Shown here piece by piece: positions 768 through 46,642 of a DNA stretch of 46,731 bases (position 1 is its first letter; every line of letters starts with the position of its first letter). Source of the stretch: an uncultured Bacteroidales bacterium (lineage in GTDB: Bacteria; Bacteroidota; Bacteroidia; Bacteroidales; P3); assembly GCA_900318275.1 (NCBI GenBank), contig ONJY01000015.1, forward strand, positions 1 to 46,731. The letters are read 5' to 3'. Under the pieces are notes generated by a model. It was not told the DNA's origin and did no database searches. It saw only the letters and a list, made by a program, of their open reading frames with translations. The translations under genes and the position numbers were made by a program.

Positions 768-886
768 CGTAATTATACGGTTGTCGTTTTACTTGCTCTT
801 TGGTAAATAACGCAGAAAGTTCATTTTTATTGCATTACAGAGAACCTTTCGGAAACCACCCTCATAACACGCTTATTATCTGACCT

Positions 887-985
887 TCCATCGTCATTTC
901 AACGATACTTCAACGATATTTCAACGATAGATATCGTTAAACTATTGTAGAAGTAATGTTGATGTATCGTAGAAGTATTGGGCCT
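887..985. repeat. 11-bp-period inverted tandem array (TTCAACGATAN / GTATCGTAGAA)
   Basis: Nine consecutive 11-mers in strict phase. The left half has TTCAACGATAC, TTCAACGATAT and TTCAACGATAG (898-930), preceded by a degenerate copy at 887. The right half has ATATCGTTAAA, CTATTGTAGAA, GTAATGTTGAT, GTATCGTAGAA and a decayed unit. The right units are the reverse complement of the left ones, so a long imperfect hairpin is possible. The array lies between the terminator of the sugar O-acetyltransferase gene and the start of the Cys-rich gene. Confidence 0.85.
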
Positions 986-10534: not shown

Positions 10535-10618
10535 GTGTTTTTTTCACTTTTAACATTTTTTTTATCGCAGCGCAAAGCGGCATTATGTTAATTTTGGTTA
10601 CATTCGGCACCTTTCCGG

Positions 10619-10717
10619 TACGGAGCCCCTACGGCATTTCTACGGTATTTCTACGCTTTTTAATGAAGAACTGCCATAGAACGACCGTAGAAACGGCGTC
10701 GGGGAACCGTAGGAGAG
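10619..10717. repeat. 11-bp-period inverted tandem array (TACGGTATTTC / CCGTAGAAACG)
   Basis: Nine 11-mers in strict phase: TACGGAGCCCC, TACGGCATTTC, TACGGTATTTC, TACGCTTTTTA, ATGAAGAACTG, CCATAGAACGA, CCGTAGAAACG, GCGTCGGGGAA, CCGTAGGAGAG. Left-half TTTCTACGG pairs with right-half CCGTAGAAA. The first 20 bp recur exactly, in reverse complement, at 35775-35794 and nearly so at 42655. The array lies about 85 bp upstream of the -33 element of the 2707-aa gene. Confidence 0.88.
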
Positions 10718-13018: not shown

Positions 13019-13033
13019 TCATGCAATGTTTAG

Positions 13034-13176
13034 TGGTTATGGGTTATTGGTTATAGAGAACTTGCTAAATTTATTGGTTATTGTGAACCGATTCAGTCAC
13101 CTGTATTTATTGCCTAAAACCTCCGACCTTTAATCTATAATCAACAAACCTATAACCCATAACCTATAACCTTTAC
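13034..13176. repeat. Paired, inverted 7-bp tandem arrays in the atpA-atpG spacer
   Basis: The left cluster (13034-13054) is TGGTTAT, GGGTTAT, TGGTTAT, with a further copy at 13076. The right cluster (13149-13176) is CCTATAA, CCCATAA, CCTATAA, CCTTTAC. The two clusters are inverted copies, so the 154-nt spacer can fold back on itself in the transcript. The last right-hand unit contains the atpA stop codon (13173-13175). Confidence 0.85.
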
Positions 13177-14750: not shown

Positions 14751-14754
14751 AATG

Positions 14755-29428: not shown

Positions 29429-29528
29429 CTTTTTTTTCTTAAAAAAAACAAACCTCAACCTAACAGCCACAAAACCAACCGACAACAATCAGCCTACAAA
29501 GCTAAAGACATAAACCATAACACTTTAG

Positions 29529-29572
29529 CCGTCCTTAGCCCGTCCTAGACCCGTCCTAAACCCGTCCTAACC
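29529..29572. repeat. 11-bp tandem array, unit CCGTCCTAAAC
   Basis: Four head-to-tail units: CCGTCCTTAGC, CCGTCCTAGAC, CCGTCCTAAAC, CCGTCCTAACC. In the same phase, more decayed 11-mers beginning AC can be traced leftwards to 29452, and two more (CTACTCATCAC, CCACTCTCACA) to the right. The same unit recurs at 42344. The array is 100 bp upstream of the -33 element of the 2098-aa gene. Confidence 0.92.
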
Positions 29573-29599
29573 CTACTCATCACCCACTCTCACAAACTC

Positions 29600-29654: not shown

Positions 29655-29887
29655 GCTGTCGCTTAGCGCACCACGAGGACGCGCTTGGCGGGAGCGTTGC
29701 CGACCTTCACCATGTAGACGCCACTGCTCTCCATGGTGAACTCCATGGTCTCGCCGGCGTTGGCCTTGGTGGCGACGGTGCGGCCGTTGAGGTCGTAGAT
29801 GTAGATGTCCTCACCCTCGGCGCCACGCACCACGATGCGGTTGCCGGTGCTGAAGATGTTCATGTCGGCAGTGACATCGTCGATGCC
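29655..29887 (-). repeat. 233-bp 3'-end block shared with the next paralogue
   Basis: Covers the stop codon and the last 75 or so codons of the 1965-aa gene. I count about eight differences from the block at 35869-36101, with no indel, far closer than the rest of the two genes. Confidence 0.92.
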
Positions 29888-32800
29888 TTGGTGCTGACGG
29901 AACATAGCGGTGATGGTGATGGCGGCGCCGTAGTCGGCATAGAGCTGACGCACGATGCCGAAGTTGGCGCTGGTCTCAGTGGTGTAGATGGTGGTATCAC
30001 CCATCGGCTGACCGGCCACGGAGATAGCGAACTGCCAGGCATAGAGCTCGTAACCAGCATTGGCGGTGGCAGTTGCAGACAAGGTGTCGCCGACGGCGAC
30101 CATCATGGTGCCGTTCGGGTTGATGCTACCCATGGTGGCGTCGTTGACGGTGTAGGTCACAGAGATGCTGTCGGGCGTGGGCACGCCGGCCTGGAAGAAG
30201 GCGTTGACGGACACGCTTGTGATGCCATAGTGCAACATCGTGTCAACGAGAAGGAAGCCGGACGGGAAGCGAGCATCGGCAGTGTCGGCTGTACCGTCGC
30301 TGTAGCTTATGATCCAAGCCACGAAACTGTTGCCGGTGGTCGGGATGGCAGTGAAAGAGACGGTGTCGCCAGCATGATAGATGTAGGTGCCGGGAGCCGG
30401 GTTGGTGGTACCAAGGTTGGCATCGTTGGTGGCGAAGCTCACAACCAGACTGTCGGGCTGCTGCGGCTGGGTGCTGTCGGCCTCGAAGTTGGCTATGAAG
30501 GTCTTGTCGCTGGTGACGGTGACGTTGATGGTAGGCTCGTCGCTGATGACATTGATGCCGAAGCCCGAGCTCTGGGTCCAGTTGACGAAGCGGAAGCCGG
30601 GATTGGCTGTAGCCTCCAGGGTGGCGAAGTCGCCGGCGGTGTAGGTGCCGCCACCGGTGGCGGTGCCCATGGTGCTGTCATTGACCTGGACGGTGATGGT
30701 GTAGGTGGTCGTGTTGTCAAGGAAGACGGCCGTGAGGTCGAGGTTGGTGGCAGCCACGAAGGTGTAGGGGTTGTCGGTGCTGATGGTCACGTTGTCGGCG
30801 TCGACCCAGCGGTCGAAGGCATAGCCCGACGCCGCTGTGGCGCTGATGGTGACGCTGTCGCCGATAGCATAGATGCCACTGCCGGCGACGGTACCGTAGG
30901 CTGGGTTGTTAGGATTGAGGTTTACGGTCACCTGGTTGGCACCAGCCTGTTCGCGGACGATAAAGTCGTCGATGGAGAGACGGAAATTGTCGGTGCAGTT
31001 GAAGTGACGCAGAGCAATGTAGATAGTCTCGCCGGCATAAGCGCTGAGGTCGATAACCGGATGGAAGACGCCGGTAGAGAGCGTCCACTCCTGAATCATG
31101 GTGAATGCGCTGACGACAGGCGACGTGGTGGAGATATAGACACCGTAGTGCTCGGCAGGCCAGCTCTGGTCCTGAGCGGTGGCGGTCCATGTCACCTCGT
31201 AGCTACCAGTGGCGGGCATGGCGAGCGGCGGAGTGACGAGCCAGTTGTCGGGAGTGAGAGCGGCGCTGTTATAGGATGCCGACTGGATGGTTCCAGAGGT
31301 ATTAAAGATAAACCAGTTCTGACCGTCGCCGTCGGCGTCAATCAATGTCCAGCAGGAAGGAATCTCGTTGAATTCCTCCTCGAAGGGGAACGTTGAGACC
31401 GCGCCGCAGGGCGTGGTGACGCTGACGGTGGCAATAATGGCGCTGTCGTCGGTTGCACAGATGGCGCGGACGCCGAAGGTGTAAGCAGTGGTGGCCAAGA
31501 GGCCGTTGATGGTATAGCTAGTGTCGGTGGTGGTGCCCACATAGGTGGCGCCATTGTAGACGCTGTAGCTGGCAGCGCTGCTGTTCCAGCTGATGGTAGC
31601 GCTGCTCTCGTCGACGTTGGTCACTGCCAAGCCGGTGACAGGCAGGCAGGTGGGCGGAAGGCCTAAGTAGAGGCTGTCGATATACAGATACAACTTGTCG
31701 TATGAAGTGCACTTGATGCTGACGTATTTCACGCCCTGCGGCAAGAACTGACTATAGACGACATAGTCGAGGTCCACAATATTTGTCACCTCAGGGAGCC
31801 ATGTGAAGGACTCGGTGGCATTGTTGGTGGTGGAGTAGCCTACGGCGAAACTCTCGGCCCAGGTAGCGGAACCTGCCTTGTAGCGGAACTCTATCATTAT
31901 GCTGTCGTCATCGGTGCCGCTCAACTCAGGCGAAATGAGATACTGGGGAGGTGTAGTGGTGTAGTAGAACCTGAAGCAACCACCATCGTTGATGCCGTTG
32001 TTGGTGCTTAAGCCTGTGGATGCATGGATGTTAGACACAGTCCAGCAGGCGATAGTGGGATTGTTCTGTTCGAAGGTCTCCAAGTAAGGGATGGGTATTG
32101 CCGCACAGGCGGTGTTGACGGTCACAGTGACGGTGTCGCTGTAGTCGCCGCCGCAGTCAACGACAACGCCGAAGGTGTAGGCGGTAGTCGGCATGAGGTT
32201 CTCTATCAGATAGCTGGTATCGTTGGTAGTGCCCAAGACGCTGCTGTCGGCCATATCGAGGACGATGAAGTCGGTGGCGTCGCTCAGCCAGCTGAGGGTG
32301 ATGCTCTCGGCGGTGATCGCGGTGTCTACTGCAGTGAGACGCGACACAGGGGGGCAGTCGGGGAGTTCCTCGATGGTCACATCATCGACATACCAATAAT
32401 AGTATGTAGCTGTCGGCGCTGCGCGGAGAGCCATGCGGACGCTGTCAGGGACGCCGGCGAACATGACGGTGCGCTGGCCGTAGACAGAGGAACCGGTGGT
32501 GAAGAACTCAGTGTAATTGTAGGAATCCAGAACCACGAAGGACGCTGGGTTGGTGATGTCGGTCATATAGCCAACGTCGAAGGTACCGCTGGAAGAGGTG
32601 TTGCTCTGGGCGCGGAGCCAGAATTTCATCTGCAGGGTGTTGGCCTCAGCAGCCAGTTCGGGCAGCACGAGGATGTTGTTTGTAGAGCCGCTGAATTGGA
32701 TGGCGTTTGTGCCGCTGTGCGAGTTGGCGGACACCACGTAGGTATAGCCGCTGCCCACCGTGGTCCAGCAGTCGGGGGTGGCGTTAGTACCCAGCCCCTC

Positions 32801-35560
32801 GAAGTCCCATGTGTGGGGAGCCTCCACGAGACCGCAGGCCGTAGTGCCGGCCACGACGCGCATGATGGCCTCGTCACTGCCGCAGTTGGCCACAACGCCA
32901 AAGGTGTACATCGTGTTGGGGGCAAGTTCGTCGAAGGTGTAGCTGTCGCCAGATATCGTGGCCACCTCGGTGGTGTCGCCGCCGGAGAGATCATAGATGG
33001 TATAGGTGGCGCCGCTGTTGGCTTCGTCGGTCCAGCTGATGGTCAAGCTGTCGCTGGTGGTCAGGCTGTCGACAATCGTCAGGTTGCTGACCGGCAAGCA
33101 GTCGGGCGTGTCGCCCGGAGTGAAGTATATGGTGGTCTTGGGCAGGAAGTCCTGCTGGTTGATGCTGCTGCCGTAACCGCCAATGGAAGCACCGGTGGCT
33201 TCGACACCATACCACGTGCTGGCCACATAGCTACCGCTCGTGGGCTCCTCGAAGGCAATCAGGAGGTTGCCTCCCATGTACTGATAATTGCTGGTGCTGC
33301 CAAATGCTACAACCATCTTGTTATTTTCGATGGAGAGACTGCCAGAATAGACCTGTGTCATGTCGGCCACGTTGAGCAGGTTCGACACTGTGGTGGCACC
33401 GGTCTCGGTGAGGTAGACATTGAAGCTGGCCGAACCCCAACTGACGGAACTTTGCGTAGCATAGAATACCAGAGAGTCGATCGTACCAAAGGTTATAGGC
33501 TCCAGAGTGCTGGCCGGTATGATGAACTGGCTATAAATGTGATCGTCAACCCAAGTACCATAGATAGGCACATAGCTGTTGGTGGCGGTGCCGTCGTTCA
33601 CGGTAAGCATATAGGAATTAGTCGGGACAAAGGTTATGACGCTTGTCCAGGCGCTGTAGCCTTCCCCGTCGTCGGTGCAGTCGCGGCGCACCATGGCGGT
33701 GTAGGCCGTTTCGGGGGTGAGGTCGGTGAGGTCATAGGAGGGCTCAACAACGTCTATGAGGGTGTTGGTATCGCCATTTAGGCAAATCTGCCAGGCCGAG
33801 CCCGTGGGGTCGTTCCATGCAAGAGTAGCCACGGTGCCGTCGCCAGGGGTGAGGATAGCCCTCAGGTTCTCCGGAGCGGGGCAGGCAACGGTGGTGGTAA
33901 AGTCAATAACACGGCTGTAGTCGCTTGAGTCGTCGTCGCAGAGCACCTTTACTCTGAAGTTGTAGGCGGTAGTGGCAGTGAGACCCGTCAGAGTGACGGT
34001 GGTATCGCTGACAATATCTGTGGTCCAGTCTTCATCTGTGGCTTTCTTGTACTCAACCCGGAAGCTGCTGCCGTCGCTCGACCACACAAAGGTGGCGGTG
34101 TGGGCGGTGGTGGAGTCGTTGATGATGGCGAGGTTGGTGACAGGCAAGCAGTCGGGGGCCCTGTCGATGGTAACGTCGTCAATATATGTAGCGTTGCCAT
34201 ACTGGCTTATACCCTCGAAAACAACATAGAAATCACTGGCTGCCATCGACTGGGGAATGACTGCACTATAGTTGTACCAACCAGCCTCTGTCTCGGTGAT
34301 TTCACCCTGCGTGATGGTGCGGCGTATGTATATCAGCGGAGTGCCGCCAATTGTGTCGGGGGTGGTGTTGACCCACACCTTGACGCCTTCCAATGCATAG
34401 GTGGGATAGTTGCTGCCGCGGTACATCCAGAAGGATACACGGTAGTTGTTGTCGGCGTCGATGCTGATCGGCGGAGTCACAAGGTTGTTCTTGTTGCCGG
34501 CATTCTGGTCTTGCAGCTGTGCGGAAGCCGTGCCGCTATGAATGTATGAGGATGACGTGTTGCGGATCCATGTGTTGGTGGAGGTACCTTCAGTATGTTC
34601 CACGCTCCAGCACGAAGGCGGGAACTCCGTGCCATCGAAGCTTTCGGTAAAGGGGGTGTCTTCGTCAACCACAAAAGTGGCGCAAGCAGTGCGACCGGTG
34701 ATAAAAGAGATGTTGGCCAAATCGCCGCTACCGCAGTCTGACTCTACGCCGAAGGTGTAGGGAGTCATTGGGTCAAGGTTGTCGATGGTGTAGCTGTTGC
34801 CGGTAATGCCGGTGGCAATGGGTGTGGTGTCGGTGGCGGTGACGGCATAGATGTTGTATGTAGCGCTGGTATTATTGGTGTCCTCCCAGTTGATGGTGAG
34901 GCTCGTAGTGGTGGTTAAAGAATCCACTATGGCAAGATTCCTCACAGGCCAGCAGCTAAGTTGGCCAGGGATGATGCCCAGGGTGATCTGGTTCTTGCTG
35001 GCAAGAAGAGTGCCTGTGACATTAGGATTGGCGACATCAAAAATGCCGTCGTCGCGATACTTGTAGAGGGCCTGGTTCGACGCGTTGAAGACAAGGCACG
35101 TCATGTGGGGGGAGCTGGAATAACTACCCGTGACATCGGCCACCGTGATAAGCAGATTGCTCACGCCGTCATATATGAACGGTGTAGCCAGCTGGATGGT
35201 TGTCCATTGGCCACTGGTAAACGTCAACGAGCCGCTGAAGACCTGGTCGCCTGCAGACATGGGCACCCAGTCGCTGGCGGAGGTAAACGTCGCCTTGCTG
35301 GTAAGCGCCATGTAGACGTTGTAGTTGCGGGTCTTCGTCTCGCCCGTATTTTTGAAAGCCACACTGGTGATGGAACCGGGAATACCGATCTCATCGGCAG
35401 TGTAGATCTGCTGCGAGAGACTGTAATTGTAGTAGTTGAAGCCAGGGACATAGCTGCTGGTGCTGCTACCCGAGCCAATCACAATCTCCTGTTGGGCCTG
35501 CGTCACCCATGGCACCATCATACATGCCATAAGCAACATAGTTCGTAGAAACTTTTTCAT
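29663..35560 (-). CDS. Giant secreted modular protein (1965 aa)
   Basis: Signal peptide 1-22 (ending VTQAQ). An N-terminal beta-sandwich (23-200) resembles that of the 2707-aa protein. FN3, a jelly-roll (297-465), the shared 355-aa cassette (468-825) and FN3 follow. Three jelly-rolls (starting near 915, 1153 and 1390, each with a CW motif) are separated by FN3 domains. Four InlB-B-like or related repeats (about 1550-1885) lead to the C-terminal domain. The last 75 residues (DMNIF..., DIYIYDLNGRTVATKANAGE, to KRVLVVR) look like a T9SS sorting domain but lack the FPNP motif of the other class. No catalytic motif; I infer a surface adhesin or binding protein. Confidence 0.91.
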   Translation of the reverse strand: MKKFLRTMLLMACMMVPWVTQAQQEIVIGSGSSTSSYVPGFNYYNYSLSQQIYTADEIGIPGSITSVAFKNTGETKTRNYNVYMALTSKATFTSASDWVPMSAGDQVFSGSLTFTSGQWTTIQLATPFIYDGVSNLLITVADVTGSYSSSPHMTCLVFNASNQALYKYRDDGIFDVANPNVTGTLLASKNQITLGIIPGQLSCWPVRNLAIVDSLTTTTSLTINWEDTNNTSATYNIYAVTATDTTPIATGITGNSYTIDNLDPMTPYTFGVESDCGSGDLANISFITGRTACATFVVDEDTPFTESFDGTEFPPSCWSVEHTEGTSTNTWIRNTSSSYIHSGTASAQLQDQNAGNKNNLVTPPISIDADNNYRVSFWMYRGSNYPTYALEGVKVWVNTTPDTIGGTPLIYIRRTITQGEITETEAGWYNYSAVIPQSMAASDFYVVFEGISQYGNATYIDDVTIDRAPDCLPVTNLAIINDSTTAHTATFVWSSDGSSFRVEYKKATDEDWTTDIVSDTTVTLTGLTATTAYNFRVKVLCDDDSSDYSRVIDFTTTVACPAPENLRAILTPGDGTVATLAWNDPTGSAWQICLNGDTNTLIDVVEPSYDLTDLTPETAYTAMVRRDCTDDGEGYSAWTSVITFVPTNSYMLTVNDGTATNSYVPIYGTWVDDHIYSQFIIPASTLEPITFGTIDSLVFYATQSSVSWGSASFNVYLTETGATTVSNLLNVADMTQVYSGSLSIENNKMVVAFGSTSNYQYMGGNLLIAFEEPTSGSYVASTWYGVEATGASIGGYGSSINQQDFLPKTTIYFTPGDTPDCLPVSNLTIVDSLTTSDSLTISWTDEANSGATYTIYDLSGGDTTEVATISGDSYTFDELAPNTMYTFGVVANCGSDEAIMRVVAGTTACGLVEAPHTWDFEGLGTNATPDCWTTVGSGYTYVVSANSHSGTNAIQFSGSTNNILVLPELAAEANTLQMKFWLRAQSNTSSSGTFDVGYMTDITNPASFVVLDSYNYTEFFTTGSSVYGQRTVMFAGVPDSVRMALRAAPTATYYYWYVDDVTIEELPDCPPVSRLTAVDTAITAESITLSWLSDATDFIVLDMADSSVLGTTNDTSYLIENLMPTTAYTFGVVVDCGGDYSDTVTVTVNTACAAIPIPYLETFEQNNPTIACWTVSNIHASTGLSTNNGINDGGCFRFYYTTTPPQYLISPELSGTDDDSIMIEFRYKAGSATWAESFAVGYSTTNNATESFTWLPEVTNIVDLDYVVYSQFLPQGVKYVSIKCTSYDKLYLYIDSLYLGLPPTCLPVTGLAVTNVDESSATISWNSSAASYSVYNGATYVGTTTDTSYTINGLLATTAYTFGVRAICATDDSAIIATVSVTTPCGAVSTFPFEEEFNEIPSCWTLIDADGDGQNWFIFNTSGTIQSASYNSAALTPDNWLVTPPLAMPATGSYEVTWTATAQDQSWPAEHYGVYISTTSPVVSAFTMIQEWTLSTGVFHPVIDLSAYAGETIYIALRHFNCTDNFRLSIDDFIVREQAGANQVTVNLNPNNPAYGTVAGSGIYAIGDSVTISATAASGYAFDRWVDADNVTISTDNPYTFVAATNLDLTAVFLDNTTTYTITVQVNDSTMGTATGGGTYTAGDFATLEATANPGFRFVNWTQSSGFGINVISDEPTINVTVTSDKTFIANFEADSTQPQQPDSLVVSFATNDANLGTTNPAPGTYIYHAGDTVSFTAIPTTGNSFVAWIISYSDGTADTADARFPSGFLLVDTMLHYGITSVSVNAFFQAGVPTPDSISVTYTVNDATMGSINPNGTMMVAVGDTLSATATANAGYELYAWQFAISVAGQPMGDTTIYTTETSANFGIVRQLYADYGAAITITAMFRQHQGIDDVTADMNIFSTGNRIVVRGAEGEDIYIYDLNGRTVATKANAGETMEFTMESSGVYMVKVGNAPAKRVLVVR
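33090..34155 (-). repeat. Shuffled 355-aa coding cassette, copy 3 of 3
   Basis: Same block order as the two copies in the 2098-aa gene (TTAHTATFVW, PENLRAILTPGDGTVATLAW, SFNVYLTETGATTVSNL, NQQDFLPKTTIYFTPGDTPDC), more diverged. Confidence 0.85.
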
Positions 35561-35868: not shown

Positions 35869-36101
35869 GCTGTCGCTTAGCGCACCACGAGGACGCGCTT
35901 GGCGGGAGCGTCGCCGACCTTCACCATGTAGACGCCGCTGCTCTCCATGGTGAACTCCATGGTCTCGCCGGCGTTGGCCTTGGTGGCTACGGTGCGGCCG
36001 TTGAGGTCGTAGATGTAGATGTCCTCACCCTCGGCGCCACGCACCACGATGCGGGTGCCGGTGACGAAGATGTTCATGTCGGCAGAGACATCGTCGATGC
36101 C
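35869..36101 (-). repeat. 233-bp 3'-end block shared with the previous paralogue
   Basis: Near-identical partner of 29655-29887; encodes the same C-terminal sorting-type domain ending KRVLVVR. Confidence 0.92.
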
Positions 36102-39100
36102 CACAGTGGAGCGGAAGACGGCCGTCACCGTCATGCTGCGCACGCCGTTGTCAATCAGGGTGCCGGCGAGCATGGCGTAGCGGGCGGTGTGGACACTGTC
36201 GGTGGTGCCGTTGTCGTAGACGACATGCCAGGCCACGAAGACGCTGCCCGTAGCAGGAGTGGCACTGTAGACGACGCTGTCGGCAGCGACATAGTCGTAG
36301 ATGCCGGCGGCGGGAGCGACGCTACCCAGCGTGGCATCGTTGACTGCCAGCGTGACGGTCAGCGTATCCTCGGTGATGACACCGGCGCCACTGGCCTCGA
36401 TGACAATGCTGTCGAGGCCAACGCCGTAACCATAATGGTCGGTGTACTCGAAGGCAATCTGGTAGGTGTTGCCAGGCAGCATCAAGGAGTCGACGGTCCA
36501 GCTGGCGATAGCGCCAGTGTAGTTGGCTGCCTCTACCCAGTCACCACCAGCGGAGAGACGATAAAGGACGCGGTGTGCGTCTATGTCGCTGCCCCAGGCG
36601 CGCTGCACGTGGGCAAAGGTGAGCTTCAAGGAGTCGACATCGTCGATGTCAATCACCGGAGACAGGAGCTTTGTGGTGCTACCGGTGGTGGCGTGTACAA
36701 TCTTGGCGTTCTGGGCACCCTCAAAGGCTCCGGTCGACGAGCTGTAGTCGCCAACGCCGACGGTCCATTCACCTTGGCCATCAGAGAGCCAGCAACCCAT
36801 GTCGGCAGCCTCGAATGTCTCGGTGTGCGGGAGCAGGCTTATCACGGCGCATTGCGTACGGAAGACGTCGCTGACGGCAGAACTGGTATCTGTACCGCCG
36901 CAGTAGGCACGCACGCTGACGGTGTAGGGTGTGTTGGCATCCAGGCCGCTGAAGGTATACGTGGGAGTTGTGGCAGTCTGCCAAGTGCTGTCGTTGAGTC
37001 TGACCAGCCACGACGACTCCTCGCCCGAGGGAGTCCAGGAGACTGTGAGGCTGGAGGTGGTGGCATCGTCAAGCGTCAAGTTGGAGGGACGCACGCATGA
37101 CAGCGCCCCGGTGACCCGCAGCGTATAGTCGTGAGCGACGGCATAGGTGCTGGAGAAGCAGGGGTCTGCAGTTGCAGCCATGGCAGCCGAAGTCACATAA
37201 CTGCTGAAATAGATGTCGGCACCGGCGATACGCATACGGTAGAGACCGGTATCCTGTATGCCTGGGACAGATATCGTGGCCGTCAAGACCGTGGGGTTGG
37301 CGCTGGCGCTCATGCCATAGTAGACCACCTCTGTGCCGTCGAACGACATGTCGTTGTTCCAGTCGACCCAGATGATGGTGCCATAGTCATATCCTGTGGC
37401 ATAGGTGATGAGGACGTCAACATCGTCGCCGGCAGCGACATCGCCCACGAGGTTAGTGTAGTTGCCATAGAACGGTGCCACAGTAGGCCTTGCACTGTTG
37501 TTGACGATTTCGGTGGTACCGAAGGTAACGTTGGTAATACCCAGACCATCGACACTGGTGGCGTTCGGGGTGCAATAGCCTATGTGCACTGGCTGGCAGC
37601 TGACCCAGATACCGGTATCACCGGCACCGCAGACGGAGCGTACCTCGAAGACATAGTCAACGTCAATGTCCAGGTTGTCGATAGTCACGGTGGTGTCGGC
37701 GACGATGCCGGTGCTCACCACGCTGTCGCTGCCCTGGGGCATGAGGCGATACTGATAGGCATCCTCTTCGCCCACCCACTCGTAGGTGACGGTGGTGGCA
37801 TCGACAGTAGCAACGATATTCTCGGGACGCGGACATGTCGGTATGAGGTGCAGGTTCATGTTGTCGATATAGGCATAGTTGGACGAGAAGTTACCTTTGC
37901 AGAGCAACAGGATATAACGCTTCTGCCCCTGGTAGTTGCCGAACGACACATACTGGGTGGTGTAGGTGCTGCTGGTGATATTCAGCGTGGCTATAGTGTC
38001 TATCGCCGTAGTGGAGGCGTACACTAAGGTATCCACCAATCCTACCAAAAGGGTGCTCGGGTCGCCATAGGCGTTGCTCACATCAAAGCTGAGCTCAAGG
38101 CCCGAGATGTCAATGCTCTCGTCGATGGTCGGCATGATGGCATAGACATAGTCGCTATAGCCGTACATAGCCATATACTTGTTGTTGTTTTCAGAGCCGA
38201 TGTAGGGGTACGAACTTTCGCCGGTGGAAGAGCCCTTGACCCAGCAGGGATTGAAGGGGGCATTGTAGCCGGAAGGCCAAGCCTCGAAGTTCTCAGTATA
38301 AGGCAGAGTGGCTATGGACACACACTCGGTGCTGAACATGCCGTTGGCTGGCGAGGTCTCTATGCCGTCGCTGCAGATAGCGCTAGCACATATGTTGTAG
38401 ATAGTTCCGGGAGTAAGGCCGGATATGATTACCACGGTGTCGGTGACAACCTGATTGTAGGCGGTGTCGGCACCACTGAGCAACACAAGGTGATAGTTCA
38501 TCACTTCGTTGGTGTCGGCTATGACAACGGTGGCACCATCGGTGCTGATGTCGCGCATAAACACAGACTGCGGCTTGCTGCACGACGGGGCGAGCATCAC
38601 GGTGATGTCGTCGATATAAGCGTTGCTGGCATAGTAGGTGTTCGTAGTATAGCGGATGGCCATGGCGTTTGCTGTTGTACGGCCGTCGAAGGTCACCTCT
38701 ACATAGCCACTCTCATAGTAGGTTGAGGGAGTCAAGGTGGAGACTACCTGGAAGGTGCTGGCATCAGCGGGGTCTACCAAAACGCCTATCTCAAGTGTAA
38801 CATCGGGGCTGGAGATAGCCCAGAAGGAGAGCTGTAGGTCTTCAACAGGCTGGTCGAACAAGGGGAGCACAACCATGGAATTGGCGCCGAAGAGGCTAAG
38901 CGAGTTGCTGCCAGAGTGCACATATTCGCCTGTATACACGAAGGGGTAACCGGGGTAGCGGTCCAGCACATCCCAGCACTGGTCGCTGAAGATATTGCTA
39001 TTATCGGAATAGTAACCGGCGGGGTAGTTCTCAAAGCCCTCATGCCAAGGGAGATTGGCTACACGCACACAGGTTGTACGGTATACACCCGTGACAGCGA

Positions 39101-42100
39101 AACTCGTGTCGGTTCCACCGCAGTAGGCATACACAGCGACGGCGTACTCGGTATTGGGTTCAAGGTTCTCTATAGTGACAGCTGTATCTGTGACAAGCTG
39201 CTGAATAGTGTCGTTGAGGACGACAATCCACTGGCTCTCGTCGCCCTGCGGCGTCCAACTTAAGGAGAGCGTCTCGGCACCAGCGCTGTCAAGCGTCAGG
39301 TTTCTGGGCGAGAGGCAGTCGGGGGCTTCAAGGACGTGCAGCGTGTAGTCGTGGGCGACGGCATAGTTGGTGCTGAAACACGGGTCGGCAGCGGCGGCGG
39401 CGGTGATGGAGGAGGTATAGTTGTCAAAGTAGCTGTCGGCACCAGCGATACGCATGCGATAGAGTCCGGTATCCTGCGTGGTGGGCACCTCGAAGGAAGC
39501 GGTCATGGTCGTGGGGGTGCTATTATCGCTCTCGCCAACCCAAACCACTTCGTTGCCATCAAAAATCATGTTGCGGTTCCAGTCGACCCAGATAACGGTG
39601 CCATAGGTGTAGCCGGTGCTATAAGTGATAGATACATTCAACTCGCTGCTGGCTGCCACAGCACCCACCATAGAGGAGTAGTTGCCATAATAAGGCGCCA
39701 CCGCAGGGCCTTGGTTGTTGTTGACAACCTCGTCGCCCACACCGAAGGTCACATTGGTGATACCTGCGCCGTCAACACTCGTGGGATCGGGGCTGCAGTA
39801 GCCGGTGAAGAAAGCAATATTGCTGTACAGGCTCTGGTCAGAGCCACAGTCAGAGCTGACGCTGAAGACATAGTTTGTCTCGCCAGTCAGGTCGGTGATG
39901 GTGGCCATCGTGTCGCTGACAACGTCGGTAGCAACCACACTGTCGCCAACCTTGAGCATATACTCATAGTTGCTGGCATCGCCGCTCCAGGCTATCGTGA
40001 CGGATTCTGTCGAAAGCGTAACAATGGTGAGGTCGGCAGGAGGCAGACACTCAGGAGCCTCGGTGACATGCAGCGTATAGTCGTGGACGACAGCATAGCT
40101 AGCTTCGAAGCACGAGGGGGCTGTCGCCGCTGCGGCCGCCGATGTCACATAGTTGTCAAAGAAACCGTCGGCAGCAGCGATACGCATACGGTAAAGGCCG
40201 GTATCCTGCGTGGCGGGCACCACCATGGAGGCCGTCAGGGTTGTGGGGTTGGCGTTGGTGCTCATACCATAGTACACCACTTCAGAACCTTCCAGCTGGA
40301 AGTTGTTGTTCCAGTCAACCCAGATAATGGTACCGTAGGTGTAACCTGTACCGAAAGTTATGGACACTTCGGCCGTTGTGCCGGCCTGCACAGCGCCCAC
40401 CATGGCGGAATAGTCACCATAATAGGGAGCGCTCGTGGGGCGCTGTGTGTTGTTGACCTGCTCTTCCGCAACACCGAAAGTCACATTGGTGATGCCGGAG
40501 CCGTCGATACTCGAGGGGCTCGGTACACAATAATCCAGGTGTACATTCACATCAGGTATGGAACCAGCGGTGTCACCTTCGCCGCACACAGCGACGAGAC
40601 GGAAATAGTAATCGTTGCCGCGCACCAGGTTCTCAATGGTCACAGTGGTGTCTGCCACCTCATCGGTCGCCACCACGCTGTTGTCGGCACTGTTGAAGAG
40701 GGTGTACATATAACTCGTAGCGCTGCCCGACCAGGTAAATGTGGCCGACGTCGGCGAGGCCCCGGTGAGGGCGAGGTCGGTGGGACGCGGGCATGTGGGC
40801 AGCAAATGCAGGTCAATGTTGTCGATAACCGCATAGGTGGCATAGGTGCCCGACAATCCCTTCACGATAAAGATGATGTTGTGTCCGTCGCCTTCATAAT
40901 CGGCCAGCGACAGGTAGGCGTTTATAGGATCCTGGCTGTTGACGGCAAGCACGGCGATGGTATCAATCGGCGTCGTGCCCGGCACATAGCTCTGTGTATC
41001 GATTATACCCACGATAAGTGTGGAGTTATAGTCATAGTAATTGTTGTAGGTGAACGACAGTTCAAGCTCGTTCATGCTGATCTCGTCGCCGAAAGTAGGC
41101 GAGACGGCCCAGAACATCGAACTGTTACCGCCATAATAAGAGCTGTAATAGAAGTACAACTCGCCCTCCTCATTGACAATCGGGTAGTTGCCCGTAGGCG
41201 ACATACCTTTTGTCCAGCAGGGGATGAGCTGCTCGGTATTGATACCGGTATAGGAAGAGAAGTCCTCCACCCAGGGCAGAGTCGTTATATCACCGCATGC
41301 GGTACGCCCCGAGACAAAGACCGGCGTAGACATGTCGTCGGCGCCACACTCGGTGGTGACGGAGAACGTATATGCGGTGCTGGCGCTGAGGCCGGTGATG
41401 GTGATAGTGGTGTCGCTATAGCCAGACGAGACCTCCTCGCCATCGGTGACATTGTAGATTGTATATGCTGCCGAACTGCTGCTGGTGTCGTGCCACACGA
41501 GGGTGAGGCTCTCTTCGGTGGTCAGACTTTCGTCAATCGCCAAGCCGAGCACCGGGAAACAGGTAGGCGGCAGACCAATATAAATATCATCAATACCGAG
41601 GCCATAGCCCCAGGCATCGATAAACTCAAACGCCACCTGGTATGTAGAACTAAGGTTGGGCAGATTTATGACGCTCTCGGTCCACACCTCGCAAGAGGTG
41701 GAATAATACTCCAACTGTGTCCAGATAGCCGTAGCCGTCGTGTCGTCGCGGTAGTAAATCTTGAGCCCATCGATGTCACCACTCCAGGAGCGGCGCACCT
41801 GCCAGAATGTGAGCTGTGCTCCAGTGGCGTTGCTCAAATCCAGCACAGGGGTGATGAGCTTGGTGGCATTACCCGAAGTGCCGTGCGTGATGACCGCATT
41901 CCGCGAGCCACCATGCGTACCCGTACTGGAGTAGTTGTCGCCAACGCCGACACTCCACACGCCAGGACCGCTGACCGTCCAGCAAGCAGGGATATTCGCA
42001 CTCCCCTCAAAGTCCTCGGCAAAAGCATGGCCTGCATACACCTCTATCGGTGTCGTGCAGTCCTGCTGGGCTCTTGTCGCCAACGGCAGCAACACGAGTG

Positions 42101-42134
42101 CCGCAAGCATCAAAGTTCGTAAAACTTTCTTCAT
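35877..42134 (-). CDS. Giant secreted modular protein with three GEVED domains (2085 aa)
   Basis: Signal peptide 1-22 (ending ATRAQ). A jelly-roll module (about 33-195) and FN3 come first, then a second jelly-roll near 285. Three GEVED-type domains follow, at about 535-690, 776-935 and 1518-1675. Each opens YCxPxxxSxDGxGITNVTFG, contains TYGT(I/V)IWVDWN or YDYGTIIWVDWN, and closes with AVxHDYTL. FN3 and jelly-roll modules lie between them, and a jelly-roll near 1770-1930 resembles the first one. One InlB-like repeat and the 75-aa C-terminal domain ending KRVLVVR finish the protein. GEVED domains are common in secreted Bacteroidota proteins and have no settled function. No enzyme motif; probably surface-exposed. 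Confidence 0.92.
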   Translation of the reverse strand: MKKVLRTLMLAALVLLPLATRAQQDCTTPIEVYAGHAFAEDFEGSANIPACWTVSGPGVWSVGVGDNYSSTGTHGGSRNAVITHGTSGNATKLITPVLDLSNATGAQLTFWQVRRSWSGDIDGLKIYYRDDTTATAIWTQLEYYSTSCEVWTESVINLPNLSSTYQVAFEFIDAWGYGLGIDDIYIGLPPTCFPVLGLAIDESLTTEESLTLVWHDTSSSSAAYTIYNVTDGEEVSSGYSDTTITITGLSASTAYTFSVTTECGADDMSTPVFVSGRTACGDITTLPWVEDFSSYTGINTEQLIPCWTKGMSPTGNYPIVNEEGELYFYYSSYYGGNSSMFWAVSPTFGDEISMNELELSFTYNNYYDYNSTLIVGIIDTQSYVPGTTPIDTIAVLAVNSQDPINAYLSLADYEGDGHNIIFIVKGLSGTYATYAVIDNIDLHLLPTCPRPTDLALTGASPTSATFTWSGSATSYMYTLFNSADNSVVATDEVADTTVTIENLVRGNDYYFRLVAVCGEGDTAGSIPDVNVHLDYCVPSPSSIDGSGITNVTFGVAEEQVNNTQRPTSAPYYGDYSAMVGAVQAGTTAEVSITFGTGYTYGTIIWVDWNNNFQLEGSEVVYYGMSTNANPTTLTASMVVPATQDTGLYRMRIAAADGFFDNYVTSAAAAATAPSCFEASYAVVHDYTLHVTEAPECLPPADLTIVTLSTESVTIAWSGDASNYEYMLKVGDSVVATDVVSDTMATITDLTGETNYVFSVSSDCGSDQSLYSNIAFFTGYCSPDPTSVDGAGITNVTFGVGDEVVNNNQGPAVAPYYGNYSSMVGAVAASSELNVSITYSTGYTYGTVIWVDWNRNMIFDGNEVVWVGESDNSTPTTMTASFEVPTTQDTGLYRMRIAGADSYFDNYTSSITAAAAADPCFSTNYAVAHDYTLHVLEAPDCLSPRNLTLDSAGAETLSLSWTPQGDESQWIVVLNDTIQQLVTDTAVTIENLEPNTEYAVAVYAYCGGTDTSFAVTGVYRTTCVRVANLPWHEGFENYPAGYYSDNSNIFSDQCWDVLDRYPGYPFVYTGEYVHSGSNSLSLFGANSMVVLPLFDQPVEDLQLSFWAISSPDVTLEIGVLVDPADASTFQVVSTLTPSTYYESGYVEVTFDGRTTANAMAIRYTTNTYYASNAYIDDITVMLAPSCSKPQSVFMRDISTDGATVVIADTNEVMNYHLVLLSGADTAYNQVVTDTVVIISGLTPGTIYNICASAICSDGIETSPANGMFSTECVSIATLPYTENFEAWPSGYNAPFNPCWVKGSSTGESSYPYIGSENNNKYMAMYGYSDYVYAIMPTIDESIDISGLELSFDVSNAYGDPSTLLVGLVDTLVYASTTAIDTIATLNITSSTYTTQYVSFGNYQGQKRYILLLCKGNFSSNYAYIDNMNLHLIPTCPRPENIVATVDATTVTYEWVGEEDAYQYRLMPQGSDSVVSTGIVADTTVTIDNLDIDVDYVFEVRSVCGAGDTGIWVSCQPVHIGYCTPNATSVDGLGITNVTFGTTEIVNNSARPTVAPFYGNYTNLVGDVAAGDDVDVLITYATGYDYGTIIWVDWNNDMSFDGTEVVYYGMSASANPTVLTATISVPGIQDTGLYRMRIAGADIYFSSYVTSAAMAATADPCFSSTYAVAHDYTLRVTGALSCVRPSNLTLDDATTSSLTVSWTPSGEESSWLVRLNDSTWQTATTPTYTFSGLDANTPYTVSVRAYCGGTDTSSAVSDVFRTQCAVISLLPHTETFEAADMGCWLSDGQGEWTVGVGDYSSSTGAFEGAQNAKIVHATTGSTTKLLSPVIDIDDVDSLKLTFAHVQRAWGSDIDAHRVLYRLSAGGDWVEAANYTGAIASWTVDSLMLPGNTYQIAFEYTDHYGYGVGLDSIVIEASGAGVITEDTLTVTLAVNDATLGSVAPAAGIYDYVAADSVVYSATPATGSVFVAWHVVYDNGTTDSVHTARYAMLAGTLIDNGVRSMTVTAVFRSTVGIDDVSADMNIFVTGTRIVVRGAEGEDIYIYDLNGRTVATKANAGETMEFTMESSGVYMVKVGDAPAKRVLVVR

Positions 42135-42210
42135 GATGTTCTGATTAATTGGTTAATAATATGTTTGTTATCCATTTTTCGTTGTATATTTCACACCCAC
42201 AAATCAAGTG

Positions 42211-42242
42211 CAAACGTACAAAGGATTTCCTTAAAAAGCAAA
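42211..42242 (-). promoter_or_regulatory. Promoter of the 2085-aa surface protein gene
   Basis: On the minus strand TTTG (42242-42239), 20 nt, then TACGTTTG (42218-42211). Confidence 0.82.
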
Positions 42243-42343
42243 TTATTTTTCCTTAAAAAAGCCCAAAAGCCCGTCTTCCAATAGTTTACACATTGGTGCC
42301 CACACGCCACTCTCACAACTCCACGCCGTTGCACCTCACCAGA

Positions 42344-42376
42344 CCGTCCTAAACCCGTCCTAAACCCGTCCTAAAC
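42344..42376. repeat. 11-bp tandem array, three perfect CCGTCCTAAAC units
   Basis: Three identical 11-mers head to tail. The same unit forms the array at 29529-29572, about 12.8 kb away. It starts 102 bp upstream of the -33 element of the 2085-aa gene. Confidence 0.95.
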
Positions 42377-42640
42377 GGCATCACCTCCCCCACCCAAAAG
42401 GGAGCATCGACGCATCGGGGACCGGCAAGCAAACCCCGGAGAGGCGACGGACATTTGCCGTGGATGCCAACCAACGGGCTCGAGGGCACCATCAGGCCGA
42501 GCCTCCGAAGGATGGCAGAGTAAAACCGACACATATATTCCGTCGCCCCTATGGGACTCCAACTGCCATATCTCCTTGATTCCGTGGGTTTGCACTCACG
42601 GCTACTTTCCGTGTCCCCGAGTGGGGACATCCTCCGCGGG
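42377..42640 (-). other. Gene-free stretch with palindromes, possible decayed intergenic repeat element
   Basis: I see no credible gene here. On the minus strand it holds GTCCCC/GGGGAC (42613-42628, 4-nt loop), CCGTGAGT...ACCCACGG (42582-42601) and the near-palindrome GTCCCATAGGGGC. From memory, similar words (CCGTGGGT pairs, GTCCCxTAGGGAC) occur in dispersed non-coding elements of Bacteroidota genomes. Open frames across it (for example 42349-42630) have no protein-like features. Confidence 0.45.
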
Positions 42641-42643
42641 CGC

Positions 42644-42863
42644 TACAACCCCCATACGGAGCCTCTACGCCCCCCCTACGGCATTTCTTCAGTAGTTCTT
42701 CAGTAAAACACTGAAGAACTACTGAAGAAGCATCGTTGAAGTACTGAAGAACTGCCGTACCGGCTCCGAGGGTGATGCGGAAATGAAAGGATGGAAAACG
42801 GAGCGGAAAGACAGGAGGAAGGCAGGGGGAAGCGGGTAGAAAGCCGGGGAAAAGGAAAGGGAA
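42644..42863. repeat. 220-bp array of twenty 11-mers in one phase
   Basis: The phase holds from TACAACCCCCA at 42644 through TACGGAGCCTC, TACGCCCCCCC, TACGGCATTTC, TTCAGTAGTTC, TTCAGTAAAAC, ACTGAAGAACT, ACTGAAGAAGC, ATCGTTGAAGT, ACTGAAGAACT and GCCGTACCGGC. It continues into a purine-rich run of units such as AGACAGGAGGA, AGGCAGGGGGA, AGCGGGTAGAA, AGCCGGGGAAA. At its centre is a perfect 20-bp inverted repeat, 42685-42704 with 42710-42729, around a 5-nt loop AAAAC. It fills the region before the plus-strand operon; no clear promoter is visible there. Confidence 0.9.
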
Positions 42864-42942
42864 AGGTGTGAATTACGAGGAAAACAGAGAAAAATCACAC
42901 ACGCGAACAATAAAAAGCAACAAGCTGCGTTGTAATGCTGTT

Positions 42943-44487: not shown

Positions 44488-45558
44488 ATGTTAGACAAAC
44501 TGGAAGCGATTTACACGCGCTACAAAGAGATTGAAGAACAGATGAACGACCCGCAGGTGACTGCGGACATGAAACGCTACGTGAAACTCAGCAAGGACTA
44601 CAAGGATCTGCAGCCCGTGGTGAAGGCCTATCACGAGTACAAGAACCTGCTCGACACCATAGCCGAATGCAAGGAATTGCTGGATAGCGAGAAAGACCCA
44701 GAGCTGCGCGAGATGGCCAAGGAGGAACTGACGGCCGCCCAAGAACGCAAGAATCCCATGGAGGATGACATACGCCTGCTGCTCATACCCGCCGACCCCA
44801 CGGACTCGAAGAACGCTGTGGTGGAGATTCGCGGCGGCACGGGCGGCGACGAGGCCTGCATCTTCGCCGGCGACCTGTTCCGCATGTACACACGCTACTG
44901 CGAGAAGAAGCACTGGAAAGTGGAGGTCACGGACTTCAACGAGGGCACCTCGGGCGGATACAAGGACATCACCTTCACCGTCACCGGCGACGGCGTCTAC
45001 GGCCTGCTGAAGTACGAGAGCGGCGTGCACCGTGTACAGCGTGTGCCGGCCACCGAGACGCAGGGCCGCATACACACCAGCGCCGCCGGCGTGGTGGTGC
45101 TGCCCGAGGCCGAAGAGTTTGACGTGGAGCTGAACATGAGCGACGTGCGCATTGACACCTTCTGCGCCAGCGGCCCCGGAGGACAGTGCGTGAACACCAC
45201 ATATTCGGCCGTGCGTCTGACACACATACCTACAGGCATCGTGGTCAGCATGCAGGACCAGAAGAGCCAGATCAAGAACAAGGAGAAGGCCATAGCCATA
45301 TTGCGCACAAGGCTCTATGAGCGCGAGTACAACAAGTACATGGAAGAGCTCTCCAGCAAGCGTAAGACCATGGTGGCCACGGGTGACCGCAGCGAGAAGG
45401 TGCGCACCTACAACTATCCGCAGAGCCGCGTGACGGACCACCGCATAGGATGGAGCATGCATAACCTGCCTGCATTCATGGACGGCGACATCGAGGAGTG
45501 CATAGAAGCGCTGCAGCTGGCCGAGAACGCCGAGAAACTGAAGGCAAGCGTTGGGTGA
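44488..45558 (+). CDS. prfA: Peptide chain release factor 1
   Basis: A 356-aa factor that terminates translation at UAA and UAG. The tripeptide anticodon PAT (residues 187-189, RVPATETQGR) marks RF1 rather than RF2. The peptidyl-hydrolase motif GGQ is at 231-233 (SGPGGQCVNTTYSAVRLTHIPTGIVV) and would be methylated by PrmC. The N-terminal coiled-coil domain and the C-terminal QSRVTDHRIGWSMHNLPAFMDGD are typical. Full length. It begins directly after the flippase stop, with a purine-rich GAGGAAG just upstream. Its TGA stop lies within the first unit of the heptamer array that fills the gap to aroE. Confidence 0.98.
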   Translation: MLDKLEAIYTRYKEIEEQMNDPQVTADMKRYVKLSKDYKDLQPVVKAYHEYKNLLDTIAECKELLDSEKDPELREMAKEELTAAQERKNPMEDDIRLLLIPADPTDSKNAVVEIRGGTGGDEACIFAGDLFRMYTRYCEKKHWKVEVTDFNEGTSGGYKDITFTVTGDGVYGLLKYESGVHRVQRVPATETQGRIHTSAAGVVVLPEAEEFDVELNMSDVRIDTFCASGPGGQCVNTTYSAVRLTHIPTGIVVSMQDQKSQIKNKEKAIAILRTRLYEREYNKYMEELSSKRKTMVATGDRSEKVRTYNYPQSRVTDHRIGWSMHNLPAFMDGDIEECIEALQLAENAEKLKASVG

Positions 45559-45615
45559 TAGGTTATAGGTGATGGGTTATAGGTTATAGGTTATGGGTTA
45601 TTGACTTTTGGTTAT
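45553..45615. repeat. 7-bp tandem array bridging prfA and aroE
   Basis: Nine heptamers in strict phase: GGGTGAT, AGGTTAT, AGGTGAT, GGGTTAT, AGGTTAT, AGGTTAT, GGGTTAT, TGACTTT, TGGTTAT. The first contains the prfA stop TGA (45556-45558); the last T is the first base of the aroE TTG start. The same words recur at 13034-13176. Confidence 0.93.
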
Positions 45616-46331
45616 TGAGAAGATACGGGTTGATAGGCAGGAAGTTGAGGCACTCGCTGTCGCAGGAGCTGTTTGAGGCGCAAGGCTTCAAGGACGCCAG
45701 ATATGGGCTCTACGAGATGTCGTCGCTCGACGGGCTGCGCCGTTGGGTCGAGGATGAGCATATCTGCGGGTTCAACGTCACAATACCCTACAAGCAAGCG
45801 ATACTGCCGTTGCTGGACACTGTGAATGACATGGCTGCGGAGATCGGGGCCGTGAACTGTGTGAGCGTCAAGGACGGACGCCTCACGGGTCACAACACTG
45901 ATGCACCGGCATTTATGGCTACCATGGCCGGCGAGCACTGCCACAGCAAAGCATTGATACTCGGCACCGGAGGCGCAGCGCGAGCTGTAGCTTACGCGCT
46001 CCGGCAGTTAGGGATAGAGTATGTTTTCGCCAGCCGGCACCCCGATGCCGCCACCGTGAAACCTGTCATAGGATACGATAAGATTACAGTAGAGTATGGC
46101 TTGATAGTCAACGCCACACCCGTGGGCATGTATCCCGACAACGAAAGCACGCCGCTCCCGCTCTCCACTCTCCACTCCCCACTCTCCAATCTCACAGTCT
46201 ATGACCTCATATACAACCCCTCACACACCCTGCTGATGAGGGAGGCCGAGACATTCGGCGCGAGGGTCAAAAATGGCCTCGACATGCTTCACCGGCAGGC
46301 GGAATTGAGCTGGGCAATATGGGGGCTATAG
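45615..46331 (+). CDS. aroE: Shikimate dehydrogenase
   Basis: A 238-aa NADPH-dependent enzyme that reduces 3-dehydroshikimate to shikimate in aromatic amino acid synthesis. The start is TTG (45615-45617), which gives the canonical N-terminus RRYGLIGRKLRHSLSQELF; no ATG is better placed. The substrate-binding SLS, catalytic Lys in FNVTIPYKQ and Asp in TGHNTDAPAF are present. So are the Rossmann loop LILGTGGAARAVAYAL, VNATPVGMYP and the end NGLDMLHRQAELSWAIW. The length is at the short end, normal for Bacteroidota. The segment PLPLSTLHSPLSNLT is encoded by a heptamer array and replaces the usual linker before YDLIYNP. Confidence 0.94.
   Translation: MRRYGLIGRKLRHSLSQELFEAQGFKDARYGLYEMSSLDGLRRWVEDEHICGFNVTIPYKQAILPLLDTVNDMAAEIGAVNCVSVKDGRLTGHNTDAPAFMATMAGEHCHSKALILGTGGAARAVAYALRQLGIEYVFASRHPDAATVKPVIGYDKITVEYGLIVNATPVGMYPDNESTPLPLSTLHSPLSNLTVYDLIYNPSHTLLMREAETFGARVKNGLDMLHRQAELSWAIWGL
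46161..46195. repeat. 7-bp tandem array within the aroE coding region
   Basis: Units CTCTCCA, CTCTCCA, CTCCCCA, CTCTCCA, ATCTCAC, read in frame as LSTLHSPLSNLT. The reading frame and downstream conserved motifs are intact. Confidence 0.88.
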
Positions 46332-46447: not shown

Positions 46448-46530
46448 GCCCAGGTGGTGGAATTGGTAGACACGCTACTTTGAGGGGGTAGTCGCCATAG
46501 GCGGTGCAAGTTCAAGTCTTGTCCTGGGCA
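46448..46530 (+). tRNA. tRNA-Leu, anticodon GAG
   Basis: Cloverleaf with acceptor GCCCAGG/CCTGGGC, anticodon stem CTACT/GGTAG around loop TTGAGGG (anticodon GAG), the long variable arm of class II tRNAs, T-loop TTCAAGT and discriminator A. The CCA end is not encoded. Confidence 0.95.
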
Positions 46531-46557
46531 CAAACAAAAAAGCCTGAAACGAAGAGA

Positions 46558-46642
46558 GCCCGGATGGCGGAATTGGTAGACGCGCACGTTTCAGGTGCGT
46601 GTATCGAAAGATGTGCAGGTTCAAGTCCTGTTCCGGGCACCA
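46558..46642 (+). tRNA. tRNA-Leu, anticodon CAG
   Basis: Acceptor GCCCGGA/TCCGGGC, anticodon stem CACGT/GCGTG around TTCAGGT (anticodon CAG), long variable arm, T-loop TTCAAGT, discriminator A and an encoded CCA (46640-46642). It lies 27 nt after the GAG gene and is probably in the same transcript. Confidence 0.95.

Follow-up and report, generated by a model that had tools for sequence, protein, structure and literature searches.

The intergenic stretch at positions 42644..42863 of contig ONJY01000015.1 raises the question of what kind of element keeps an 11-bp register while the word that fills it changes, and whether this property belongs to one locus or to a wider family. The window, meaning the whole stretch of DNA that was analysed (46,731 nt), comes from an uncultured Bacteroidales genome designated here as G000. 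A sequence-only reading had described the 220 bp as consecutive 11-mers in unbroken phase. The periodicity itself is strong, with matches at 110 of 209 positions at lag 11 compared with 55.9 ± 6.3 in 1000 dinucleotide shuffles, none of which reaches the observed value (z 8.6). Its harmonics are also raised (lag 22, z 5.8; lag 33, z 5.1), as are lags 3 (z 3.0) and 8 (z 4.1). In a scan of word lengths from 5 to 20, neighbouring 11-mers agree at 52.6% of positions, followed by 8-mers (40.4%), with all other lengths at or below 33%. Individual sub-blocks carry the signal as well, which is reached by 2 of 500 shuffles at 42644-42684 (17 of 30 matches) and by none of 500 at 42677-42710, 42705-42760 or 42760-42863. 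What does not stand is the single unbroken run: agreement between neighbouring words drops to 2/11 at the centre and to 2-4/11 at 42754-42775 and 42787, and because it is lowest at these points the stretch is read as two abutting arrays, a palindromic element (approximately 42644-42780) and a second, purine-rich 11-mer array (42786-42855), rather than one uniform run.

Both arrays occupy a divergent intergenic region (42135..42942) between a minus-strand ORF (35877-42134) and a plus-strand Polysacc_synt gene, the start of which is placed from the sequence at the ATG at 42943, the gene-finding script having chosen the GTG at 42868. The palindrome begins with left outer units of TACGG-type words (42644..42684, the first sub-block of the lag-11 test), continues into a left inner arm of CTTCAGTAGTT-type words (42685..42704) and turns at a 5-nt centre (42705..42709), whose sequence differs among copies, into the right inner arm (42710..42729). 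The inner arms are complementary at all 20 nucleotides across this spacer, and the perfect 20-bp inverted repeat claimed earlier is indeed there. Two extra right-arm units with CATCGTTGAAG and TACTGAAGAAC words (42730..42753), as read in the sequence, are without a left partner in this copy and are followed by right outer units of the GCCGTACCGGCTCCG type, the reverse of the TACGG type (42754..42780, outer limit approximate). The 11-mers of the second array (42786..42855) are degenerate, and its orthologue in G022, a genome of another species of the genus, is a regular GACGGCTGGAA-type array. A third 11-bp array, of the CCGTCCTAAAC type, lies in the same gap at 42326..42391, with three exact copies at 42344-42376, and a candidate -7 box of the minus-strand gene can be read at 42210..42218 on the minus strand; its pattern, TAnnTTTGC, is that of the -7 promoter motif of Bacteroidetes.

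Elsewhere in the window, 11-bp arrays are found at 878..983 (palindromic, TTCAACGATAC type), 10609..10665 (CTACGGCATTT type) and 29518..29590 (CCGTCCTAAAC type). The window also contains five very long minus-strand ORFs of 1658-2707 aa (2310-10433, 17832-22808, 23028-29324, 29663-35560 and 35877-42134), a 216-bp repeat in 3.3 copies at 18222-18944 within the second of them, and a pair of tRNA-Leu genes (anticodons gag and cag) at 46448-46642, spaced 26 bp apart.

The palindrome at 42644-42780 is one member of a dispersed family. The element sequence has 86 matches in its own genome (2,275,486 bases in 56 contigs), many of which represent both strands of one palindrome. Among the 26 copies inspected, arms built of 11-mers (CTACGGAGCCC, CTACGGCATTT, CTTCAGTAGTT and CTTCAACGATA types) are joined at a short variable centre. 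The end sequences CGGTACGGC/GCCGTACCG recur in some copies only, and CGGTACGG-like ends likewise in part of them; the arms run outward as 11-mer units, and a non-repetitive leader or tail with transposon-like terminal inverted repeats was not found in the element. For a search by period, arrays were defined as 33-base windows with at least 21 lag matches and were sought in an 840-kb sample of G000 comprising 102,317 intergenic bases in 371 regions. Lag 11 covers 4,740 bases (4.6% of the intergenic DNA) in 53 regions, roughly 100 times the 47 bases covered in shuffled sequence, and lags 22 and 33 cover 2,775 and 1,645 bases. Such a genome-wide excess over shuffled intergenic DNA had been proposed as a check on the sequence-only reading, and it is present. 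No lag-11 window was found in 647,799 bases of predicted genes longer than 600 bases, as called by our own codon-score script, which may take some arrays for genes and because of which the intergenic total of G000 varies between 98,692 and 102,317 bases.

A second strong period, 7, covers 4,875 bases in 51 regions of the same sample, making it about as abundant as the 11-bp class, with harmonics at lags 14 (3,373 bases), 21 (1,989) and 28 (1,513); lag 8 (1,372 bases) may be a side lobe of 11 (11 minus 3). The 7-bp arrays consist of ATAACCT-, TTAACTC-, TCAATTC-, TGAACTT- and CCACTGT-type words and occur at 13021-13172 and 45552-45622 of the window and at many other G000 loci. In predicted long genes, lag 7 covers 2,390 and lag 14 covers 1,740 bases, perhaps as arrays called genes. 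In G000 and G022 together, 58 of 70 such arrays lie in co-directional gaps (377 of 522 among all gaps) and only 8 in divergent ones, unlike the 11-bp arrays. Some flank recurrent sequences such as CGTTGCGCAAAGCGA or CGAAGTGAACTAAC (L055 at 10344-10543 and 14660-14827; L058 at 12501; L087 at 330 and 18360) and may constitute a second modular element.

The distribution of the 11-bp arrays was followed in metagenome assemblies from the same genus and from ten other families of the order, the family itself being represented by this genus only. By DNA similarity, the element is found in 4 of 61 genomes (own included). The 20-base core pattern matches at least 112 stretches in a GTDB-derived collection, and the 80 matches listed fall in five Bacteroidales assemblies, four named from sheep or roe deer and the fifth being RUG061. 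Period analysis reaches much further. In G022, lag 11 covers 4,011 of 37,568 intergenic bases (44 in shuffles), and the excess at lags 11, 22 and 33 is common to the intergenic DNA of G000 and G022. All 15 further genomes of the genus, sampled at 40-80 kb each, contain lag-11 arrays (3,980 of 95,051 intergenic bases), of which weak matches in AT-rich stretches (G071, G027) may be due to chance and two in G071 are one sequence counted twice; 13 of the 15 pass a stricter rule, G067 and G027 failing it. Ten genomes from the ten other families yield 46 of 54,962 intergenic bases, confined to one genome, and nothing under the stricter rule. A word-based search thus misses the family across species, finding it in 4 of 61 genomes, whereas period analysis finds it in all 17 sampled genomes of the genus, G000 included.

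The words themselves mostly differ from genome to genome; examples are TTGATAGGGAC in G015 (together with palindromes of the CTTCAGT type), TACGGTGTTGG in G035, ATGTACGGTGC in G072, CTCTACCTCTT and TTGTTGTCCGC in G002, CTACCAACACC in G069, ACTCGGAGTTG in G023 and TGACTTTGATA in G073. Words of different species are weakly related, slightly above chance, and between distant species most words show no recognisable relationship. Nine of 1829 cross-species word pairs match at 10/11 or better, compared with 0.45 for shuffled words (maximum 2), and 17 match at 9/11 or better, compared with 6.1 (maximum 12); at 7/11 there is no excess (312 versus 293, null maximum 323). The earlier impression that the phase outlasts the sequence is supported by comparisons between species and by the sample of the genus as a whole.

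A period without a constant word could also belong to ordinary, independent slippage arrays in which the value 11 is coincidental, and in favour of this the same genomes often carry the second period, 7, as does G060 among the ten from other families. The period spectrum nevertheless disfavours this explanation: in nearly every genome sampled from the genus, period 11 ranks first or second by bases covered, and it is practically missing in the ten other-family genomes. Moreover, palindromes, coupling of arms and copies shared between loci are not simple products of slippage, which makes a coincidence very unlikely. In G060, intergenic arrays (L292-L295) occur at lag 7 (807 bases) and lag 10 (432 bases), with none at lag 11.

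Mirror symmetry is frequent in the family. A palindromic centre is present in 40 of 91 merged arrays (21 of 59 in G000 and 19 of 32 in G022) and in 0 of 91 shuffled ones, leaving 51 arrays without such a centre. At positions 11-22 from the centre, 91% of bases are complementary to the partner arm, compared with 48% (G000) and 64% (G022) for swapped arms. Pairing is retained through three or four pair types at many positions (at offset 15, in 35 of 40 versus 14.5 for swapped arms), and at arm positions 0-2 and 8 it hardly exceeds the swapped-arm value. The shuffled control is the safer of the two because centres were chosen for complementarity, a choice that favours an arm's own partner. The extents of the two arms correlate weakly (0.21). 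The orthologous pair conserved best has a changed left arm and an unchanged right arm, so base-by-base compensation is absent there, and compensatory evolution of this kind is rejected. Both observations speak against strict structural selection. Arm coupling is instead read as the copying or replacement of units, not as compensation pair by pair.

With respect to genes, the arrays are concentrated between divergently transcribed neighbours. Divergent gaps hold 27 of 52 lag-11 arrays in G000 and 18 of 31 in G022, where they make up 58 of 360 and 33 of 162 gaps, respectively. Among gaps of at least 150 bp in both genomes, an array occupies 45 of the 71 divergent gaps, 7 of the 25 convergent and 28 of the 150 co-directional; in G022, convergent gaps contain arrays in 5 of 19 cases, or 5 of 11 at 150 bp and above. 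The enrichment persists within three length classes, in which 6 of 21, 20 of 24 and 19 of 26 divergent gaps of the two genomes carry arrays, compared with 7 of 93, 13 of 40 and 15 of 42 gaps of other orientations (Fisher p 0.014, 9e-5 and 0.006). The 15 other genomes of the genus show 17 of 58 divergent, 5 of 37 convergent and 24 of 256 co-directional gaps with arrays. A TAnnTTTGC box directed toward a gene start accompanies 57 of 75 eligible array regions versus 66 of 131 array-free regions of at least 150 bp. Among 82 such boxes, 49 sit 50-145 bp beyond the array edge and 12 on the opposite side of it. Phasing between palindrome centre and -7 box is unclear (n = 32; p 0.10 for 11 bp, 0.80 for 10.5, 0.04 for 9 and 0.05 for 12), and helical phasing of the centre with the promoter box was dropped as a candidate for want of clear support.

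Since they lie between divergent genes and upstream of promoter boxes, most arrays are probably not transcribed. This position bears on the possibility of a transcribed RNA hairpin (a terminator, 5' UTR element or processing site) whose stem would be quantised by the 11-bp turn of the RNA helix. The RNA fold is stable (z -3.55) and the arms covary, both in favour of such a hairpin, but 42644-42790 folded as DNA gives a result no less striking (z -6.3). Within the window, no U-tract adjoins the element, and Rfam at gathering score returned no match except two tRNAs. At a co-directional locus shared by G000, G022 and G069, the array of G000 and G022 lies between an apparent terminator and the next promoter, as far as these can be read from sequence. 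An RNA hairpin is accordingly quite unlikely, and the structured transcript considered in the sequence-only reading is disfavoured, solely by position.

Comparison between species shows how the arrays change. Of 182 intergenic regions sampled in G022, 80 could be paired with the G000 sample by their flanks, and in the 58 paired gaps of at least about 60 bp an array is present in both genomes in 9, in G022 only in 8, in G000 only in 1 and in neither in 40. Arrays are therefore both retained in place and variable, as compared between species, in agreement with what the sequence-only reading had anticipated. Its further proposal, a process that works in units of exactly 11 bp, is supported by the indels of at least 4 bases: 10 of 32 within arrays are multiples of 11 (eight of 11 bp, one of 22 and one of 44), compared with 16 of 197 in the remaining intergenic DNA (Fisher p 0.0008); the other 22 within arrays are not. 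Two aligned loci have gained or lost 11 bp in both arms, and at the locus under study G022 has three units in the left inner arm where G000 has two. At another orthologous pair (G022 C18:88.7 kb and G000 C26:103.0 kb), both arms consist of AGTAG words in one species and of AACGATAC words in the other.

Replacement between loci is apparent as well. At the studied locus, the G022 copy shares 0.99 identity with a copy elsewhere in G022 and 0.76 with its own orthologue; at a second locus the values are 0.93 for the paralogue and 0.70 for the orthologue, and at a third the difference is slight (0.81 versus 0.77). The fourth locus is reversed, with 0.93 for the orthologue versus 0.71 for the best paralogue (0.82 on the G000 side), these four being the only pairs with a scored palindrome on both sides. 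The greater likeness of paralogues at some loci implies that sequence is replaced between loci as sites stay occupied, although not everywhere. Farther afield, four loci of G069 are syntenic to G000/G022 arrays: two carry palindromic arrays with other words, one is a divergent gap with no array, and at one the convergent gap is gone. G002 has no array at three comparable loci (two divergent; one without a remaining gap). Over all 100 syntenic rows, which are not independent because G000 and G022 are counted separately, arrays are found in both genomes in 4, only in the compared genome in 1, only in G000 or G022 in 6 and in neither in 89.

These observations can be set against an alternative in which the arrays bind protein and are under direct selection, with sites one turn apart beside promoters, the two arms serving two divergent promoters, and words coevolving with the protein. 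The enrichment in divergent gaps in G000, G022 and 15 other genomes, the position upstream of promoter boxes, the unit of about one helical turn and the palindromic 11-bp arrays with other words at two of four syntenic G069 loci all suit such an arrangement. Each genome nevertheless contains several unrelated words, phasing from centre to box is unclear (n = 32), and turnover is high, given that 8 of 17 G022 arrays are undetected in G000 and that G002 has none at three loci. Binding under direct selection is possible, and on balance we lean against it.

Near-identical copies at unrelated loci, shared CGGTACGGC/GCCGTACCG ends in part of the copies and one clean 95-bp presence/absence locus would also be expected of a non-autonomous mobile element of the MITE or REP type, mobilised by a transposase in trans and acquiring minisatellite growth as a by-product. 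At the 95-bp locus, however, the ends are ambiguous and no clear target-site duplication is seen, 51 of 91 arrays lack a palindromic centre, and the element has no match in viral contigs, plasmids or phages, which also led us to reject a phage or plasmid origin. The Y1 family, the sole transposase family searched, had matches in 28 of 41 genomes of the genus, with none in array-bearing G000, G015, G061 and G064; being thus patchy, a RAYT/IS200-type Y1 transposase is rejected as the mover. A mobile element of this type is, in our estimate, unlikely.

A unit length that stays constant as words change is likewise what a telomerase-like reverse transcriptase with an 11-nt RNA template would produce by unit-by-unit synthesis, and DRT10, in the portion of its description available (PMC12632851), provides a precedent that bacteria can make tandem-repeat DNA by templated reverse transcription. 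RVT_1 was found in only 15 of 41 genomes of the genus; those without it include G022 (98% complete) and G015 (100%), and it was not found in any of nine array-bearing genomes (G000, G002, G015, G022, G026, G027, G034, G061 and G064). A reverse transcriptase as maker is therefore rejected, and the copying system suggested earlier finds no support in a version built on that enzyme. Templated synthesis, which has no insertion route and would require a polymerase outside RVT_1, is largely refuted and can be considered extremely unlikely.

The hairpin nuclease SbcD (TIGR00619), sought in the whole genomes G000-G036, gives no match in G000, G022 and many more genomes of the genus, while others match it well. 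It was not found in G000, G022, G002, G023 and G035 and was found in G015, G020, G026, G027 and G034, with array shares of 3.0-10.7% without it and 0.8-8.0% with it (Mann-Whitney p 0.095, n = 5 and 5). Its patchy loss could affect palindrome stability, which is a weak lead. It is rejected as a sufficient enabling cause because the other-family genomes G044, G054 and G057, also without a match, have no or almost no arrays. The gene family tracking the arrays that the sequence-only reading had hoped for was thus not met with among RVT_1, Y1 transposase and SbcD.

The observed whole-unit changes, likeness between loci within a genome, mirror symmetry and promoter-side position are brought together most simply by a dispersed, modular family of intergenic repeats with an 11-bp building block, which turns over by whole units and has a role, if any, at the DNA level. 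We hold this reading to be somewhat probable. Turnover by slippage, fold-back copying between arms and replacement by another copy would swap whole units, and the register may persist because whole units are what is exchanged. Words would drift under an 11-bp register inherited from an ancestral array of the genus, although inheritance alone does not explain why the unit is 11. Negative supercoiling between divergent promoters may favour the fold-back or slipped structures needed for such turnover, and it would suit a cruciform or a protein array. The element would then act, if at all, as double-stranded or extruded DNA at operon boundaries and not as RNA, with a docking array for an architectural or regulatory protein or a torsional buffer as candidate roles.

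A bolder and rather doubtful extension is that the genus possesses a general register-keeping system: at many inter-operon sites between divergent promoters, 11-bp-quantised and often mirror-symmetric arrays would offer a track on which an architectural protein lands, or would absorb torsion as cruciforms, with geometry and symmetry selected and the letters nearly free. If so, the sites would be conserved and their words rewritten by each species. Whereas the word is the usual mark of a repeat array, here it differs between species and even between orthologous sites, and what persists on the promoter side is the 11-bp unit, often with its mirror symmetry. Arrays of this kind open to study whether the geometry of DNA (helical turn, palindrome, torsion) can stay conserved when its sequence does not.

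Several known systems resemble this family in part. The BOX elements of pneumococcus are likewise intergenic and modular, contain a stem-loop and vary in how many internal units they hold; their modules are fixed in sequence and their unit measures approximately 45 bp, whereas the present units are 11 bp long with changing words. REP/BIME sequences, associated with the RAYT Y1 transposase, are dispersed extragenic palindromes that are not known to form unit arrays and are usually located downstream of genes. The present family shares the dispersed palindromes but is enriched in divergent gaps, and four of its array-bearing genomes gave no Y1 match. The ParR/parC centromere of plasmid R1 consists of tandem 11-bp sites read in phase by one protein; it shares the tandem 11-bp layout and is confined to one locus per plasmid, in contrast to the many chromosomal loci described here.

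Other precedents concern the period itself. A weak A/T periodicity of about 11 bp in bacterial DNA (PMC4132750, PMC516772) is commonly read as the pitch of negatively supercoiled DNA, according to the excerpts available (PMC4132750); it is a faint spacing bias, whereas the present arrays are discrete, near-repeated and often GC-rich words. A cruciform map of E. coli has also been published (PMC6060812), the accessible part of which offers no breakdown by gene orientation to set beside the present arrays. Tandem repeats of 6-11 bp are over-represented in the intergenic DNA of Methanococcus and Natrialba (PMC4060949), and short-unit non-coding tandem repeats form satellite families with intergenic enrichment in some prokaryotes (PMC6749651); the accessible sections of these two sources do not describe a genus-wide constant period with changing words or a palindromic layout. 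Among open-licence papers, no description of 11-bp arrays of this form was found.

BrickBuilt, a MITE/minisatellite of Porphyromonas gingivalis and P. gulae, has a 23-nt unit of one word, a leader, a tail and transposon-like terminal repeats, as set out in the part of its description at hand (PMC4596501). The likeness, on the same partial account (PMC4596501), lies in the Bacteroidales host, the dispersed intergenic location, imperfect direct repeats that expand or contract by whole units and predicted long stem-loops; the present family differs in its 11-bp units, many words, head-to-head palindromes and a period common to the genus. By unit length and ends the element is not a BrickBuilt member, and BrickBuilt-like modular intergenic repeats are the closest known kind.
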